From a virus, in the IMG/VR virus record IMGVR_UViG_3300030103_003195, positions 1 to 21,427 of that record: a stretch of DNA of 21,427 nucleotides. One strand, given 5' to 3'. Of this stretch, positions 8,538-19,497 are shown in pieces. The first letter of the stretch is position 1; the number at the start of each line of letters is the position of its first letter. The notes beneath the pieces are model-generated. The model was given only the letters and a program-made list of their open reading frames with translations. It was not told the DNA's origin and did not search any database. Position numbers and translations under genes: made by a program.

Positions 8538-10043
8538 ATGGCAGTCACGAATGGATGGGGGCAGGGAGCGGTTAATAATACCAACAATTGGGGGAAGGGT
8601 AAAACCACAGCAACCAATAATTGGGGAGAAATATATGACTCAAGCTCAAGTGGGGATACTAATTTAGGAACTACAGCAGCTTTTGTTAATACTAAAAGTA
8701 TAGAACTTGACGGTGTAGATGACTTTGTCAATTGCGGAGACTCCGATAACTTATCTTTTGGTAATGGCTCAACTGATTCGCCTTTTAGTATATCTGCTTG
8801 GATAAAACCTAACGACAATCAAAAATTCAGAATTATTTTTAAATATAATCCAACTGAAACTTTAAGAGAATACTTTTTTCAAGTATCTAGTTCGTCAAAA
8901 TTACAAGTAGGACTTTATGACGCTAATAATTTAGGTAGTTTAGGTAGAAACGGGAATACAACTATATTAGAAAATGTATGGAGTCACGTTGCAATGACAT
9001 ATAATGGGAACGGTTCAAATACAGGTATTAAAATATACTTAAATGGTGCTTTAGATAATGGTAGTACGTCTGGAGGTGGTTCGTATACTGCAATGAATAA
9101 TACAACAGAACCCTTTTTAATAGGTAAATTCAACGGAGGCAGTACTGCAAATGGTTTAATAGATGAAACGGCAATATTTAACACAGAATTATCTGCAAGT
9201 GATGTGACCGATATTTATGGCAGCGGTGTTCCCTCTTCCCTTTCAAGTTATAGCAGTTTAATTTCTTGGTGGAGATGCGGAGACGGTGATACATCACCTA
9301 CACTTACGGACAATGGTTCGGGTGGCAATAACGGCACTATGACTAACTTTAGTACATTCTCAACTGATGTGCCTATTGAATTATTTAGTAAAAAATCAAT
9401 ATTACTTGACGGAGTAGATGACTATGCAGATATGGGCAACCCTACAAGCTTGCAAATTACAGGAGCGATGACTCTGAGTGCGTGGGTAAAAACTACTGCA
9501 AGCGGCGCTTCAGATATGCTTATTGGAAAAGATGGGGTTTCGGCAGGTACTAGAACCTTTTTGTTTTTGAGGTCAAGCAACAATGCTAAGTTTGGAATTT
9601 TTAAAAGCGGTTCGTTTGTTTCAGTAACAGGAACATCTGCAATTAATGATGGCAATTGGCATCACGTTATGGGAGTAAACACAGGAACAGATTTAAAGAT
9701 ATATGTTGATGGAAACCTTGAAGCAACTAATGCAGGAGGCGGTGGAACTATTGACAATGGAACAGGCATCTTTTATCTTGGTAGACGTGGAGGTTCTCCC
9801 GCACAGCGTTTATTTTATACAGGCCACTTAGATGAGGTTGCTGTATGGAATAGTGACCAATCTTCAAATGCAAGTGCTATATATGGAACAGGAACACCGA
9901 CAGACCTTTCTATATATTCACCACTTTCTTGGTGGAGATGCGGAGACGGAGATACTTCGCCGACACTTACCGATAACGGAAGTGGTGGCAATAACGGAAC
10001 AATGACAAACTTCAGCACATTCTCAACTGATGTACCAACTTAA
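8538..10043 (+). CDS. Tail or fibre protein with two LamG-like domains
   Basis: 501 aa. A short N-terminal part has two NGWG/NNWG-type repeats (residues 1-33). Two concanavalin A/LamG-3-like domains follow, about residues 52-275 and 285-501. Each starts with an LDGVDD motif (DGVDDFVNCGD; DGVDDYADMGN), has a WHHV-like strand (WSHVAMTYNG; WHHVMGVNTG), KIYLNG/KIYVDG and a GLIDE/GHLDEVAVWN strand. Each ends with the same 37-residue tail (SWWRCGDGDTSPTL... STFSTDVP). LamG domains usually bind carbohydrate or protein, so attachment to a surface polysaccharide is a fair inference. The gene lies just before the lysis cassette, where receptor-binding proteins often sit. Enzyme activity is not indicated. 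Confidence 0.65.
   Translation: MAVTNGWGQGAVNNTNNWGKGKTTATNNWGEIYDSSSSGDTNLGTTAAFVNTKSIELDGVDDFVNCGDSDNLSFGNGSTDSPFSISAWIKPNDNQKFRIIFKYNPTETLREYFFQVSSSSKLQVGLYDANNLGSLGRNGNTTILENVWSHVAMTYNGNGSNTGIKIYLNGALDNGSTSGGGSYTAMNNTTEPFLIGKFNGGSTANGLIDETAIFNTELSASDVTDIYGSGVPSSLSSYSSLISWWRCGDGDTSPTLTDNGSGGNNGTMTNFSTFSTDVPIELFSKKSILLDGVDDYADMGNPTSLQITGAMTLSAWVKTTASGASDMLIGKDGVSAGTRTFLFLRSSNNAKFGIFKSGSFVSVTGTSAINDGNWHHVMGVNTGTDLKIYVDGNLEATNAGGGGTIDNGTGIFYLGRRGGSPAQRLFYTGHLDEVAVWNSDQSSNASAIYGTGTPTDLSIYSPLSWWRCGDGDTSPTLTDNGSGGNNGTMTNFSTFSTDVPT
9264..9374 (+). repeat. 111-bp coding repeat, copy 1 (LamG domain tail)
   Basis: It encodes the 37 residues from SWWRCGDGD to STDVP. The second copy at 9927-10037 encodes the same residues but differs at many third codon positions, so it is an older duplication kept by protein selection. 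Confidence 0.85.
9927..10037 (+). repeat. 111-bp coding repeat, copy 2 (LamG domain tail)
   Basis: Second copy of the SWWRCGDGD...STDVP segment, at the C-terminus of the LamG protein. The nucleotide differences from copy 1 are synonymous as far as I could read. Confidence 0.85.
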
Positions 10044-15149: not shown

Positions 15150-15419
15150 ATGAAAATATTAGAAGAAGCACACAAGATCTTGTATGAAAGATCTGAAGAA
15201 AAATCAAGAATGTATGGGCCTTTTGAAGAAGGAATGAAAAGAGCCGCTCAGATATTCTCAGGTATGACAGGAAGAACAATGACTGCATCAGATATGTATA
15301 AAGCCATGGTGGCACTAAAGTTATCACGAGAATCATATCATCATAAAGAAGATAATTTATTAGATGCTGTAGCTTATTTAGCTACTTTAAATGATCATGA
15401 AAACAATCAAAAAAAATAG
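15150..15419 (+). CDS. DUF6378-like phage protein
   Basis: 89 aa, helical. It contains YGPFEEGMKRAAQIFSGMTG, DMYKAMVALKLSRESYHHKEDNLLDAVAYLATL; the K-x-SRE...H..DN..D...Y closing helix is the mark of the DUF6378 family found widely in phages. The helical layout and acidic-His motif resemble small nucleotide-related all-alpha proteins, but no activity is known to me. It heads the operon that holds the base-modification genes; the next ATG is 2 nt after its stop. Confidence 0.7.
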   Translation: MKILEEAHKILYERSEEKSRMYGPFEEGMKRAAQIFSGMTGRTMTASDMYKAMVALKLSRESYHHKEDNLLDAVAYLATLNDHENNQKK

Positions 15420-15421
15420 TT

Positions 15422-16369
15422 ATGAAAATAGGAATGTTAGGAATAATAGGAAACTGCGTAAAAAGTATTAATTCACATAATGGAGGATGGACACTGGTAT
15501 GTAAGAATATTTTAGAACGTACTTTTGAAAATAAAGTAGAGATTATAAACGATAAAAGTGATTTTGATACTTATGATATAATAGTAATAAATGAAGGTGT
15601 CAACTATAAAGAAGGAGTATATAATTTTTTTGGAGGAGTTCAAGAAACTACAAAAACAAAATTATTTAAGATCTTAGATTTTAAAGGTGAATTGTTTTCT
15701 ATAAATGAGCGTATTGATTTAAATCACATGTGTGAAAAAAGAAAAGAATTACAAGGTTTTAAAGATAGTAAGTTTAGAATACCAGAAATATTTAATACTG
15801 ATGTTCAGTTTAGTAATATTTTAGTAGGAGATAGTCATTCTATATCCGTATATAGGCCGGAATTTAGTATAAATAGAAATGATGGTAAAACACTATACGG
15901 ATTCTTAAAAGATCCCCAGAAGTACTTTAAAAAGCCAATACATAGTTATAATAAAATCTATACGTATTTTGGAAATATAGATATAAGGTTTCATTTATGT
16001 AGACAAAGTAACCCTAAAATAGCTACTGAAAAATTAGTCGATCAATATATAGATTGGTGTTGGAATTCTAAAGCAAAGCCAGTTTGTTTGTTGCCTATCG
16101 AGGTAGAAGATCGAAAAATCCCAGGTACAGGATTATATAATGGAAAACCTTTTTACGGAAGTAGAGAGTTAAGATCAGAATTAGTGTCGATTTTTAACGA
16201 AAGATTACAATCGCATTTTTTAGATTGCTTAGTATGGCCTGAAGAATGGTACGATAAGGATTATGATTTTACAAAAAATATGGAAGCACGACAGTCTGTT
16301 CATTTAAGGCCTAGTTCTTATAAATTTTATGATCAATTAAATAAACAAGAAACACTTAAACTATTTTAA
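15422..16369 (+). CDS. SGNH/GDSL hydrolase-like protein in the modification cassette
   Basis: 315 aa in two parts. Residues 1-120 look Rossmann-like (MKIGMLGIIGNC ... NKVEIINDKSDFDTYDIIVINEGVNY). Residues about 132-310 show SGNH hydrolase blocks: GDSH with S138 (ILVGDSHS), FGNIDIR with N185, and VHL with H294 near the C-terminus. The acidic residue usually three before that His is Gln here (Q291), so the triad may use another acid or the protein may be a non-classical hydrolase. Related proteins act as esterases or acyl transferases on sugars. Beside a putative amino acid:DNA transferase it could deacylate or acylate a modified base, which is speculation. Spacing to neighbours is 1-2 nt. Confidence 0.55.
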   Translation: MKIGMLGIIGNCVKSINSHNGGWTLVCKNILERTFENKVEIINDKSDFDTYDIIVINEGVNYKEGVYNFFGGVQETTKTKLFKILDFKGELFSINERIDLNHMCEKRKELQGFKDSKFRIPEIFNTDVQFSNILVGDSHSISVYRPEFSINRNDGKTLYGFLKDPQKYFKKPIHSYNKIYTYFGNIDIRFHLCRQSNPKIATEKLVDQYIDWCWNSKAKPVCLLPIEVEDRKIPGTGLYNGKPFYGSRELRSELVSIFNERLQSHFLDCLVWPEEWYDKDYDFTKNMEARQSVHLRPSSYKFYDQLNKQETLKLF

Positions 16370-16370
16370 C

Positions 16371-17273
16371 ATGTTAGAACAATTTAAAGACTATTATAGA
16401 AAAGCAAAAATGAAACAAGAATACTCTTATGAAGGTATTCAATGGACAAAGGAAGATATTAATGATGATTTAGTATGGCATGTTCCTATATACGACGTTG
16501 TAAATAGACGGTTTGCAGCATTTAGTAGCTTACCTGAAGCAGTGAGAAAAGGTGAAAATGATCCTAAAGGAAATGGTAAATACTTTCAAAGATTACACGC
16601 GTTAAGTGATAATGATTTTATGACTATGTGTTATTTATTTAGATTATGCGGTTCAGGAATTAACTACAAGCCTAAAGCAAAAGAAGACGAGCCTTGGGGC
16701 ACTCATGGTTTTGGTAATTTTTGGATAGTAGATGAATTAAAAGGAGGATTTACTTGGTCAATAAATTGGATTAACATGATACCAGAAAATAAATTCTGTG
16801 ATGTTAAAGGTTATTTATTGCCTATGATTAAAGGAGGGCTTAGAAACTTTATACAAAAAGAAGCATTAAATCTAACCGATCACTTAATAACATATATTGG
16901 CCAACAAAAAAGAGGTATAAAAGATGTAGTAGATGAAGGTAATAAATGGCTAATAGATAAAGGATATAAAAGACAGAATTTTGTTTTAACTGCTTTTGCT
17001 ATGGATATGGCAGAATATTTTCCTAATAGCGTAGATGATAATAGCGATGTTTACGTAGGTTCTAATGCAAAAAAATGCTTAAAGATGATTTTACCTGATA
17101 TGAAAACAGATGCTGCTTTAAGATATTTATGTGAGATCACAGGCGGTCATAGTAAACCTTACGATATGGAAGATGTAGCATGTGACTTTATTCGCTACAT
17201 AGAAAACTTTCAAAGTGATGATCATGTTAAATTTAATAATGGAATAAAATACTATAACAATGTTCTTAAATAA
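16371..17273 (+). CDS. Putative alpha-glutamyl/putrescinyl thymine pyrophosphorylase-like (amino acid:DNA transferase) protein
   Basis: 300 aa, mostly helical, no signal. Features recalling this family are an early WHVPIYDVVNRRFAAFSSL, the Gly-rich centre GSGINYKPKAKEDEPWGTHG (residues 94-113) with FGNFWIVDEL, and a C-terminal YDMEDVACDFIRYI (residues 264-277) like the D-x-E...C-x-F...Y ending seen in the family. Members, described by comparative genomics and later shown in phages, join an amino acid or polyamine to phosphorylated 5-hydroxymethyl-uracil in DNA. The adjacent PLP enzyme, thymidylate synthase homologue and MazG-like gene strongly favour this assignment over a generic helical protein. 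It is based on remembered motifs, so the exact clade and substrate are open. Confidence 0.5.
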   Translation: MLEQFKDYYRKAKMKQEYSYEGIQWTKEDINDDLVWHVPIYDVVNRRFAAFSSLPEAVRKGENDPKGNGKYFQRLHALSDNDFMTMCYLFRLCGSGINYKPKAKEDEPWGTHGFGNFWIVDELKGGFTWSINWINMIPENKFCDVKGYLLPMIKGGLRNFIQKEALNLTDHLITYIGQQKRGIKDVVDEGNKWLIDKGYKRQNFVLTAFAMDMAEYFPNSVDDNSDVYVGSNAKKCLKMILPDMKTDAALRYLCEITGGHSKPYDMEDVACDFIRYIENFQSDDHVKFNNGIKYYNNVLK

Positions 17274-18150
17274 TCAAAAAGGAAACTATAATAAAGACTT
17301 AGATAGTAAAGATTTACAATACTATTTAGATTTAACGAAAGATTTTAAATCTAGTTTTGATCCATTTCACGTGAAAGAAATAAATGGATTTATGATCATA
17401 GACGAATCTGAAAGTAATAAGGTAGGCGCTAAAGCGCGTTTTGGTGAGTTTCTTATATCTACATGTAAGCAAGATGAAATAGTTTACGTACAGCCACGAA
17501 ATGGCTTTGCAGGTATAAGTCTGAGTTATTTGTGTAAAATCTATGGAAAAAAATTAACATTAATTATGCCTAGTTCAAAAAAATCTAGTAACCATCAAAG
17601 ATTATGTATTGAGTATGGAGCAAAGCCTTTGTTTTTAAGAATAGCAGCTATGCCAAATGCAAATAGTATGGCAAGAAAATACGCAGCAAAAAAAGGAGCA
17701 TTATTTATTCCATTAGGTTTAAATCATGAGTATGTTATTGCTAATGCTGTAAGATGTATTTATGATTATTTTAAAGACAAACCAAAACCTAAAACAATGT
17801 GGTCCGTAATTTCTACAGGTGTTCTTACTAGAGCTATGCAGATTGCATTACCAGATACTAAATTTCACGCTATAGCAGTAGCAAGAAACATACAAAACGG
17901 TGAATTAGGAAAAGCAAAGTTCTATAGCTATCACAAACGATTTACTGCAAAATCAGATCTTATACCTACGGAATTTAACTCAGAGGAAACATACGATAGT
18001 AAAGGATATGATTATCTTTGTAAATACGGAGATAAAGGAGATTGGTTTTTTAATGTAGCAGGTAACGCACCTGAATCTATAATAAAAGCTAGCGAAGTTG
18101 ATAGTTATAGAGATTGGAATGATTTACGTGATTTTAAAAATATATTATGA
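17260..18150 (+). CDS. Fold-type II PLP-dependent enzyme (cysteine synthase/tryptophan synthase beta-like)
   Basis: 296 aa. A Lys in SNKVGAKARFGEF (K54 or K58) fits the PLP Schiff-base position. PRNGFAGISLSYLCKIYGKKLTLIMP (residues 79-104) matches the loop and strand that in this superfamily read SGNhGxalAyxaxxxGxxxtivmP. STGVLTRAMQIALPDTKFHAIAV (185-207) matches the phosphate-binding glycine loop, though it is poorer in Gly than usual. In phage hypermodification pathways PLP enzymes act on an amino acid attached to the base; a role in making or trimming such an adduct is inferred. It overlaps the upstream gene by 14 bp and the next by 4 bp (ATGA). Confidence 0.68.
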   Translation: MFLNNQKGNYNKDLDSKDLQYYLDLTKDFKSSFDPFHVKEINGFMIIDESESNKVGAKARFGEFLISTCKQDEIVYVQPRNGFAGISLSYLCKIYGKKLTLIMPSSKKSSNHQRLCIEYGAKPLFLRIAAMPNANSMARKYAAKKGALFIPLGLNHEYVIANAVRCIYDYFKDKPKPKTMWSVISTGVLTRAMQIALPDTKFHAIAVARNIQNGELGKAKFYSYHKRFTAKSDLIPTEFNSEETYDSKGYDYLCKYGDKGDWFFNVAGNAPESIIKASEVDSYRDWNDLRDFKNIL

Positions 18151-18782
18151 AATACAAAAACGCACAAGAAGCTTTTGAAAATATGTATAAAATAATTTCA
18201 GAAGAAGGATTAATACATGGAGAAACTAAATGCTTATTTAATGTAGGCTTTTATATGTTACAACCTGAAGATAATATAATTAAAACTAAATGGAGAAAAT
18301 TTAAACCAGATTATGCTGAAGAAGAATGGCAATGGTATTTATCAGGGAATACAAACGCTATGAAAATTGCAGAGAAAGCAAAAATATGGTATAAATGTAT
18401 GGATGAATTTGGTAATGTAAATAGTAATTATGGAGCTCACTGGAATGAAGGTGATCAGATAGAATACGTTGTGAATGAGTTAAAAAATAATAACGAATCA
18501 CGTAGAGCTAGTATTTCTATTTACAACGCAAAAAAAAGACACAACTTTAAAAATGACACGCCGTGTACTTATGCAATTAATTTTTGTATAATTAAAAATG
18601 AACTATGTATGAGTGTACTTATGAGATCTAATGATTTATGGTATGGCTTTGCTAATGATCAATATTGTTTTAGTAAATTACAAAAAATGATAGCTGATAA
18701 ACTAAACATAAATGTAGGATGGTATTACCATTTTACTAATAATATGCATTTATATTTTAACTTTTTAAATAAAAAACAATGA
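18147..18782 (+). CDS. Thymidylate synthase homologue (probable deoxynucleotide hydroxymethylase)
   Basis: 211 aa. Clear thymidylate synthase landmarks: EEEWQWYLSGNTN (59-70), NYGAHW (94-99), RRASISI (119-125), catalytic C140 in DTPCTYAI, RSNDLWYGFANDQ (160-172) and NNMHLYFNF near the end. It is shorter than standard ThyA (about 260 aa), as many phage members are. The residue that selects uracil or cytosine is either N170 or D171 depending on a one-residue gap, so dUMP or dCMP cannot be told apart by eye; the thymine-modifying neighbours favour dUMP. The probable product is a 5-hydroxymethyl nucleotide (or dTMP). It is coupled to both neighbours by ATGA overlaps. Confidence 0.78.
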   Translation: MKYKNAQEAFENMYKIISEEGLIHGETKCLFNVGFYMLQPEDNIIKTKWRKFKPDYAEEEWQWYLSGNTNAMKIAEKAKIWYKCMDEFGNVNSNYGAHWNEGDQIEYVVNELKNNNESRRASISIYNAKKRHNFKNDTPCTYAINFCIIKNELCMSVLMRSNDLWYGFANDQYCFSKLQKMIADKLNINVGWYYHFTNNMHLYFNFLNKKQ

Positions 18783-19084
18783 AACTAACAAATGAATTTG
18801 AGTCTATAAGAGACTGGGCAAAAGAAAAAGGTATCTACAAAAAAGGTGATCCTAAAACACAAACTTTAAAATTAGTAGAAGAATCAGGTGAATTAGCAAA
18901 AGCTGTTTTAAATGATGATCAAGATGAAGTAATAGATGCTATAGGTGATTGTGTTGTTGTATTAACAAGCGTAGCGCACTTAAGAGGCGTAACAATAGAG
19001 GAATGTATTAATGTAGCTTATAACGTTATAGCAAAAAGAAAAGGTAAAATGATTAACGGAACATTTGTAAAAGAAGAAAAATGA
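18779..19084 (+). CDS. MazG-like nucleotide pyrophosphohydrolase
   Basis: 101 aa. The all-alpha NTP-PPase motif is visible: EESGE (residues 34-38) and, after 11 residues, EVIDAIGD (50-57), with acidic residues that bind magnesium. The C-terminal KMINGTFVKEE is often seen in phage MazG-like proteins. Such enzymes remove dCTP, dUTP or dTTP, or host alarmones. In this cassette the sensible job is to remove the normal nucleotide so that the modified one enters DNA, or to supply monophosphate to the synthase encoded just before it. Overlaps neighbours by 4 bp each side. Confidence 0.8.
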   Translation: MKLTNEFESIRDWAKEKGIYKKGDPKTQTLKLVEESGELAKAVLNDDQDEVIDAIGDCVVVLTSVAHLRGVTIEECINVAYNVIAKRKGKMINGTFVKEEK

Positions 19085-19497
19085 GGACATATAAAGCAAA
19101 AATAAAAATGCATGATGACTGGAGAATTCAAAACACTGGTATATTAGGTGAAAAAATATTTAACATTTGGTTTAATAAAAACTATGAAACTGAAAAAATA
19201 TTTAAACAATGTGCTGACAGAGATTATGAGGGTATTGATTTTGCAGATGAAAAAGGATACACTTATCAAGTTAAAGCAACAAGAGCGCGTAGCTATTCGT
19301 TTAATTGCTATTTAGATGATCTTAACGAGCATTTAAAAGCTGATGTGTATGTTTTTATTCAAATACACGATAAGTATGCTTATATTGAAAGTTTATATAG
19401 TAAAGAGGAAATACTTAATTTAGCTAGACAAAGCTATAAAGAAGAAAACTCTTGCTTTGTATATGCTAAAGATCTATTACAACAAAAATTATTCTAA
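19081..19497 (+). CDS. PD-(D/E)XK-like nuclease
   Basis: 138 aa. The start LGEKIFNIWFNKN (E24) and a GIDFADEKGYTYQVKAT segment give the core E24 ... D53 ... Q63-V64-K65, the usual acidic, acidic, (E/Q)-x-K signature of restriction-endonuclease-like folds. YVFIQIHDKYAYIESLYSKEEI continues as the beta/alpha core. Members include resolvases, restriction enzymes and DNA-repair nucleases; the small size fits a minimal domain. It is coupled to the MazG-like gene (ATGA) and sits between the modification and replication genes, so processing of replication intermediates or cutting of unmodified DNA are both possible. Confidence 0.62.
   Translation: MRTYKAKIKMHDDWRIQNTGILGEKIFNIWFNKNYETEKIFKQCADRDYEGIDFADEKGYTYQVKATRARSYSFNCYLDDLNEHLKADVYVFIQIHDKYAYIESLYSKEEILNLARQSYKEENSCFVYAKDLLQQKLF

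Follow-up and report, generated by a model that had tools for sequence, protein, structure and literature searches.

We analyzed a 21,427-nucleotide stretch of viral DNA (IMG/VR record IMGVR_UViG_3300030103_003195, positions 1 to 21,427; hereafter the window), in which six consecutive open reading frames (ORFs), termed P1 to P6, form a candidate cassette for the modification of phage DNA (Table 1). A first-pass annotation had placed six coupled genes here and read them as a DNA-base hypermodification cassette of a Bacteroidota phage; the ORFs were indeed found at the predicted coordinates, all on the plus strand, with neighbors overlapping or sitting few bases apart. Its calls of a DUF6378 protein, a fold-type II pyridoxal phosphate (PLP) enzyme, a thymidylate synthase (TS) homologue and a MazG-like protein were likewise recovered with Pfam and PHROGs, the Pfam PALP match of the PLP enzyme lying just below the curated cut-off. 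The portal protein of this phage is 39% identical to the portal of Nonlabens phage P12024S, a resemblance that supports the proposed Bacteroidota host.

Table 1 Genes of the candidate modification cassette (positions within the window; BGT, beta-glucosyltransferase; NTP, nucleoside triphosphate; dCMP, deoxycytidine monophosphate)
Gene	Positions	Strand	Length	Predicted product	Evidence and occurrence
P1	15150..15419	+	89 aa	DUF6378 protein	Pfam PF19905 E 3.6e-12; in 71/80 loci
P2	15422..16369	+	315 aa	BGT-like N-terminal domain (~1-100) and SGNH domain (~128-307; GDSHS, GNID, QSVH)	hhalign, model, phrog_13881
P3	16371..17273	+	300 aa	All-helical protein of DNA-glycosylase / amino acid:DNA transferase fold; motifs THGFGNFW, EDVACDFIRY	model and structure matches
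P4	17260..18150	+	296 aa	Fold-type II PLP enzyme; K58, PRxGFAG loop replacing TSGNTG, C-terminal YDSKG block	PALP E 2e-7; phrog_7093 E 5e-25
P5	18147..18782	+	211 aa	Predicted dCMP hydroxymethylase of T4 gp42 type (Cys140, Asp171)	Pfam thymidylate synthase E 1e-26; residue alignment
P6	18779..19084	+	101 aa	MazG-like all-alpha NTP pyrophosphohydrolase	Pfam MazG E 2e-7, PRA-PH E 1e-6; in 66/80 loci

Searching IMG/VR with P3 alone retrieved 80 loci, many of them on short contigs and several on truncated ones. A PLP enzyme gene was present in 79 of these loci, TS and SGNH genes in 73 each, DUF6378 in 71 and MazG in 66. A second, divergent set, obtained with a distant relative, comprised 76 contigs of up to 162 kb, two of them shared with the first set; here we counted P3 in all 76, the PLP enzyme in 73, SGNH in 72, a TS-type gene in 65, DUF6378 in 64 and MazG in 31. 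P3 relatives occur in about 165 contigs of IMG/VR; nearly all of these hold a block of DUF6378, SGNH, P3, PLP and TS-homologue genes, often joined by MazG, and the linkage is kept across contigs although the gene order changes. This coupling is far beyond chance. The cassette is real, widespread and unnamed, and its reading as a DNA-base hypermodification system is supported. P3 relatives were not found in a cultured-phage collection (tblastn) or in a genome collection (contig scan).

The target base is indicated by P5. Aligned with T4 gp42, P5 carries Glu60, Ser93, Tyr95, Asp137, Cys140 and Asp171 at the positions of Glu60, Ser94, Tyr96, Asp145, Cys148 and Asp179 of the T4 enzyme, which includes the cysteine noted in the first-pass annotation. 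Asp171, which occupies the position of E. coli Asn177, is kept in 66/66 non-redundant P5 relatives, as are Glu60, Ser93, Tyr95 and Cys140, and Asp137 is found in 65 of the 66. The dUMP-type (deoxyuridine monophosphate) enzyme of phage PaMx11 has Asn184 at the position of Asp171. In T4 gp42, Asp179 determines cytosine specificity, the D179N exchange lowering kcat about 3600-fold (PMC6400193). An environmental association study found that Asp at position 177 of TS homologues marks phage contigs with modified cytosine, in which PRA-PH-type pyrophosphohydrolases are frequent neighbors (PMC8670742). Compared with solved structures, the P5 family profile matched T4 dCMP hydroxymethylase best (E 5e-25), with a thymidylate synthase and a CMP (cytidine monophosphate) hydroxymethylase scoring almost as well. 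In the second set, the Asp motif is found in 59 of the 65 TS-type ORFs and the GLPFN motif of normal thymidylate synthase in five; some second-set contigs have, in addition, a separate TS that bears the usual Asn motif.

P5 is thus well supported as a predicted dCMP hydroxymethylase, producing 5-hydroxymethyl-dCMP. Because all relatives have Asp instead of Asn at the position that specifies the pyrimidine, the target base of the cassette is very probably cytosine, hydroxymethylated by P5 and then decorated further. The first-pass annotation had named thymine, a call that this evidence changes to cytosine. For P5 to be a dUMP hydroxymethylase after all, with P3 and P4 building an adduct on 5-hydroxymethyluracil as the similar gene kinds of the M6-like, PaMx11 and Pam3 loci might suggest, appears very improbable, given the Asp, the BGT-like domain that P2 carries and the failure to find a 5-hydroxymethyldeoxyuridine (5-hmdU) kinase.

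Since the records searched for kinases are possibly fragmentary, the negative results given here do not prove absence. The 5-hmdU kinase family PF18748 had no match in 32 records, and AAA_33 gave three sub-threshold matches only. P-loop ORFs near 164 cassettes, classed by length and cluster, had for the most part the size and position of helicase, RecA-like or terminase genes, and one remote ORF resembling adenosine phosphosulfate kinase was seen by eye in a single record (L208). A scan of 12 records for T4-type deoxynucleoside monophosphate kinase (PF21448) gave no match. With no recurrent kinase seen, the predicted route seems to lack the kinase of the known thymine pathways.

P2 was predicted to consist of two domains. 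Its AlphaFold model (pLDDT, the predicted local distance difference test, of 93) matches many SGNH/GDSL hydrolase structures over residues 128–307 with Z ~10, so that the earlier SGNH-like call holds for the C-terminal half. The top Foldseek match of P2 is T4 BGT, at low TM-score. Profile comparison with hhalign accounts for this match, as residues 1–96 of P2 align to residues 1–99 of BGT, with NFFGG common to both, at a score of 50.6, while none of 60 shuffles exceeded 21 and none of 16 unrelated phage proteins exceeded 20. By this comparison, the N-terminal domain of P2 is related to that of T4 BGT and may serve as a recognition module for DNA containing 5-hydroxymethylcytosine (5hmC). We also considered P2 itself as a BGT and rejected this candidate: its C-terminal half aligns with SGNH folds, the alignment covers BGT residues 1–99 only, and the C-terminal UDP-glucose (uridine diphosphate glucose) domain of BGT has no counterpart in P2. 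The GDSHS and GNID blocks of the SGNH domain are kept, and the DxxH block reads QSVH. PHROGs places P2 in the unnamed phrog_13881, and an hmmsearch of its profile against PDB sequences gave nothing useful. The SGNH protein, which the first-pass annotation had called an unusual partner, is truly so in such a cassette, and its N-terminal domain points to 5hmC.

Relatives of P2 were found in the Aeromonas T4-like phages 44RR2.8t, 31, 25 and L9-6 and in Tenacibaculum phage PTm1. Those of 44RR2.8t, 31, 25 and PTm1 (phrog_13881, phrog_17781) share the two-part build with 25–32% identity over almost the full length, and the L9-6 relative has the complete two-part build as well; unlike in the cassette, P3 and PLP genes do not lie beside the P2 relatives of 44RR2.8t, 31, 25 and PTm1. 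For 44RR, 31 and 25, the presence of genes 42 and 56 and the absence of glucosyltransferase genes have been reported (PMC2993671). The 44RR protein has a 455-residue extension that weakly matches HMUDK_hel (Pfam E 0.003); hhalign scored this region no better than shuffled controls, so the link is a lead only. In 44RR2.8t and L9-6 the gene for the P2 relative with the 455-aa fusion (L126:5956-8343 and L084:6956-9343) adjoins a sodium/sugar symporter gene. In phage 25 (L125:5776-9047), a UDP-galactopyranose mutase gene (E 5e-54), the gene of an unnamed protein (phrog_14998) and that of the P2 relative stand in a row, and the P2 relative lies next to a protein that by eye has a glycosyltransferase-like start. 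This row suggests sugar-decorated 5hmC in that phage. Extended to the cassette, the 5hmC would carry a sugar and P2 would be an unusual glycosyltransferase partner, for which its BGT-like domain and the phage 25 neighborhood speak. We nevertheless regard this as highly improbable, as the UDP-glucose domain of BGT is replaced in P2 by an SGNH domain, no recurring sugar gene was recognized in the cassette neighborhoods examined, and almost every cassette includes a PLP enzyme.

The model of P3 (pLDDT 86.7) found its best solved-structure match in the PaMx11 glycinyltransferase (8z2n; Z 9.3, 202 residues, root-mean-square deviation 4.3 Å). Among predicted viral structures, and leaving unnamed relatives aside, the best named match was an 'amino acid:DNA transferase domain' protein (E 2e-9, 25% identity); another viral protein of the amino acid:DNA transferase (AADT) name matched at E 2e-3, and the 5-hmdU kinase proteins of SP10 and PhiW-14 were further, weak matches. 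A G-x-G-[PN]-[FW] motif is present in 57/57 P3 sequences and also in some AADT and HMUDK_hel proteins, and a C-terminal C-[DE]-x-x-[KR]-Y motif resembles that of HMUDK_hel (CEFDKY). Scans of Pfam, PHROGs, NCBIfam and PADLOC left P3 without a family, and hmmsearch of its profile against PDB sequences returned nothing useful. These data support a transferase-like P3 at the level of the modelled fold only.

P4 has its predicted PLP lysine at K58 (VGAKARFGE), kept in 53/53 relatives, with the loop PRxGFAG standing where TSGNTG is usual. By hhalign it is a distant homologue of the PLP enzymes that adjoin AADT in the M6-like phage Lydia, EKU1 and Pam3 (score 48.8 vs a shuffled maximum of 22.4); the M6-like-phage enzyme next to AADT is annotated as threonine dehydratase or PLP enzyme. 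The fold-type II PLP partner, which the first-pass annotation had held to be unusual, is for this reason not so. PLP enzymes reportedly decarboxylate attached amino acids in thymidine pathways (Lee et al. 2022). P4 is closer to PLP domains that, in Erythrobacter and Microcystis phages, are linked to ParB-like and DNA methylase-like parts. In Erythrobacter phage ZS04 (L082:2326-4764) and Microcystis phage Mae-JY30 (L083:7390-9708) such a PLP domain is fused or adjacent to these parts and the proteins are annotated as DNA methyltransferases, an arrangement that possibly represents another type of DNA modification.

For P1 and P6 we detected no sequence link to T4 gp56, nor of one to the other, and a role of P1 in the nucleotide pool is guessed from the neighboring genes. 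In part of the cassette family the MazG homologue carries an N-terminal T5orf172/MUG113-like (GIY-YIG) extension (L061:9502-10245).

Taken together, we favor, with a probability of roughly 0.6, the reading that the cassette makes 5hmC in phage DNA and adds to it a side chain derived from an amino acid, P2 and P3 doing the work of an activating kinase; we infer the chemistry of the side chain. P5 would convert dCMP to 5-hydroxymethyl-dCMP, P6 and perhaps P1 would tune the nucleotide pool, roughly like gp56 in T4, and 5hmC would be built into the phage DNA. P2 would then dock on the 5hmC site through its BGT-like domain, and its SGNH domain would activate or acylate the hydroxymethyl oxygen, the job of the P-loop kinase in thymine pathways. 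P3, with its modelled base-flipping DNA-glycosylase fold, may couple the methylene carbon to an amino acid or a similar group, and P4 may trim or supply the amino acid, for example by decarboxylation as in the thymidine pathways. The resulting cytosine with its amino-acid-derived side chain would block host restriction enzymes. The fuller version, a kinase-free amino-acid hypermodified cytosine not yet described, activated by an SGNH protein with a 5hmC-binding domain, charged by a P3-type transferase and finished by the PLP enzyme, is put forward tentatively.

Several observations weigh against this reading. A kinase for hydroxymethyl-dCMP was not found in the contigs, which are perhaps fragments, and P2 has Gln291 where the usual SGNH DxxH block has Asp, giving an altered triad. 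The fold of P3 also matches the queuine salvage protein DUF2419 and archaeal 8-oxoguanine glycosylases within one Z unit (7u07 and 7ou3, both at Z 8.8), so that the glycinyltransferase match is not exclusive and the reaction cannot be read from the fold by itself. None of 32 P3 family members matched Pfam, including the transferase model ADDT (PF18724), at E up to 10, and profile comparison with AADT and HMUDK_hel lacked significance, the AADT score of 16.5 lying at the level of shuffles (16.7). P3 is consequently not filed as an AADT: the aGPT-PPlase-like call of the first-pass annotation agrees with the fold, while the search against the AADT family that it had proposed for the 16371-17273 product was run and gave no match.

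The near-equality of the AGOG 8-oxoguanine glycosylases and the glycinyltransferase (Z 8.8 vs 9.3) leads to a different proposal, in which P3 excises bases from host or rival DNA with unmodified cytosine while the other genes shield the phage DNA. In support, destruction of unmodified DNA is frequent among phages with 5hmC. Yet P3 is constantly paired with P2, sometimes as a fusion, and with the PLP gene, and its nearest named viral structures are transferases, so that we consider base excision highly unlikely.

The main rival accepts 5hmC and places an ester or other acyl group on the hydroxymethyl oxygen as the final mark. The SGNH domain would carry out the acylation, the PLP enzyme would make a small acyl donor, and P3 would do no more than flip and present the base, a service that the helical domain of 5-hmdU kinase may likewise provide to its kinase. 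The genes of P2 and P3 adjoin each other (median gap about -1 base) and are fused in three contigs (L087, L019 and L160), fusions that also count for the transferase reading of P3; the 44RR-type fusion to a region with the HMUDK_hel match, the HMUDK_hel-like C-terminal motif of P3 and the single glycosylase-fold protein here, compared with two in PaMx11, point the same way. On the other hand, the nearest named viral structures of P3 bear the AADT name, hhalign did not confirm the 44RR match, and esters would be labile. We judge an acyl mark unlikely, albeit clearly the most credible of the alternatives.

The cassette can be compared with several known systems. As in the 5hmC system of T4, P5 has the catalytic and specificity residues of gp42 and the first ~100 residues of P2 are related to BGT; the cassette differs in having no visible sugar-transferring domain, in its SGNH domain, P3 and PLP enzyme, and in a MazG where no gp56 homologue was recognized. 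With the thymidine loci of M6-like phages, PaMx11 and Pam3 it shares a TS-type hydroxymethylase and a glycosylase-fold transferase, and with the M6-like and Pam3 loci also a fold-type II PLP enzyme homologous to P4. In contrast to these loci, which hold AADT, HMUDK, PLP and radical S-adenosylmethionine or flavin enzymes, it has Asp for Asn, an added SGNH protein and one glycosylase-fold protein rather than two, with no kinase and no radical S-adenosylmethionine or flavin enzyme seen. The MetaGPA 5hmC carbamoyltransferase contigs resemble it in Asp at TS position 177, a PRA-PH/MazG-type pyrophosphohydrolase and a non-sugar group on 5hmC, here proposed; the cassette lacks the carbamoyltransferase and has another transferase and a PLP enzyme (PMC8670742).

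Further genes were noted around the cassettes and elsewhere in the window. A 138-aa ORF at 19081-19497 overlaps the MazG stop and has by eye a PD-(D/E)XK-type look (GID ... QVK); its relatives follow the cassette in 15–16 contigs of the first set. Between the PLP and TS genes, one contig (L040:3584-4141) and 11 others encode an unnamed 186-aa protein (cluster c26) with Cys, His and Asp that look conserved by eye. In two contigs of the second set (L157 and L168; 162 kb and 136 kb) the cassettes lie near genes read from sequence as GroEL-, GroES- and small heat-shock-like and as dCMP deaminase- and dUTPase-like. At 8538-10043, the window encodes a 501-aa protein with, by eye, two similar concanavalin/LamG-like halves, each closing with the near-identical stretch SWWRCGDGDTSPTLTDNGSGGNNGTMTNFSTFSTDVP.

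Amino-acid adducts in phage DNA are known on thymine, and to our knowledge the established hypermodifications of cytosine are glycosylated and carbamoylated 5hmC only. Our literature searches for amino-acid-modified cytosine in phage DNA found none among the papers listed, which does not exclude its existence. If the favored reading is true, the cassette, conserved in about 165 viral contigs, would bring amino-acid chemistry to cytosine and add a new activating enzyme. The P2 relatives may also offer an answer for Aeromonas phages 44RR, 31 and 25, which have 5hmC genes and no glucosyltransferases, and since these phages can be grown, the idea is testable at once. The cassette offers a lead, open to testing, to a new type of protected base in phage DNA.

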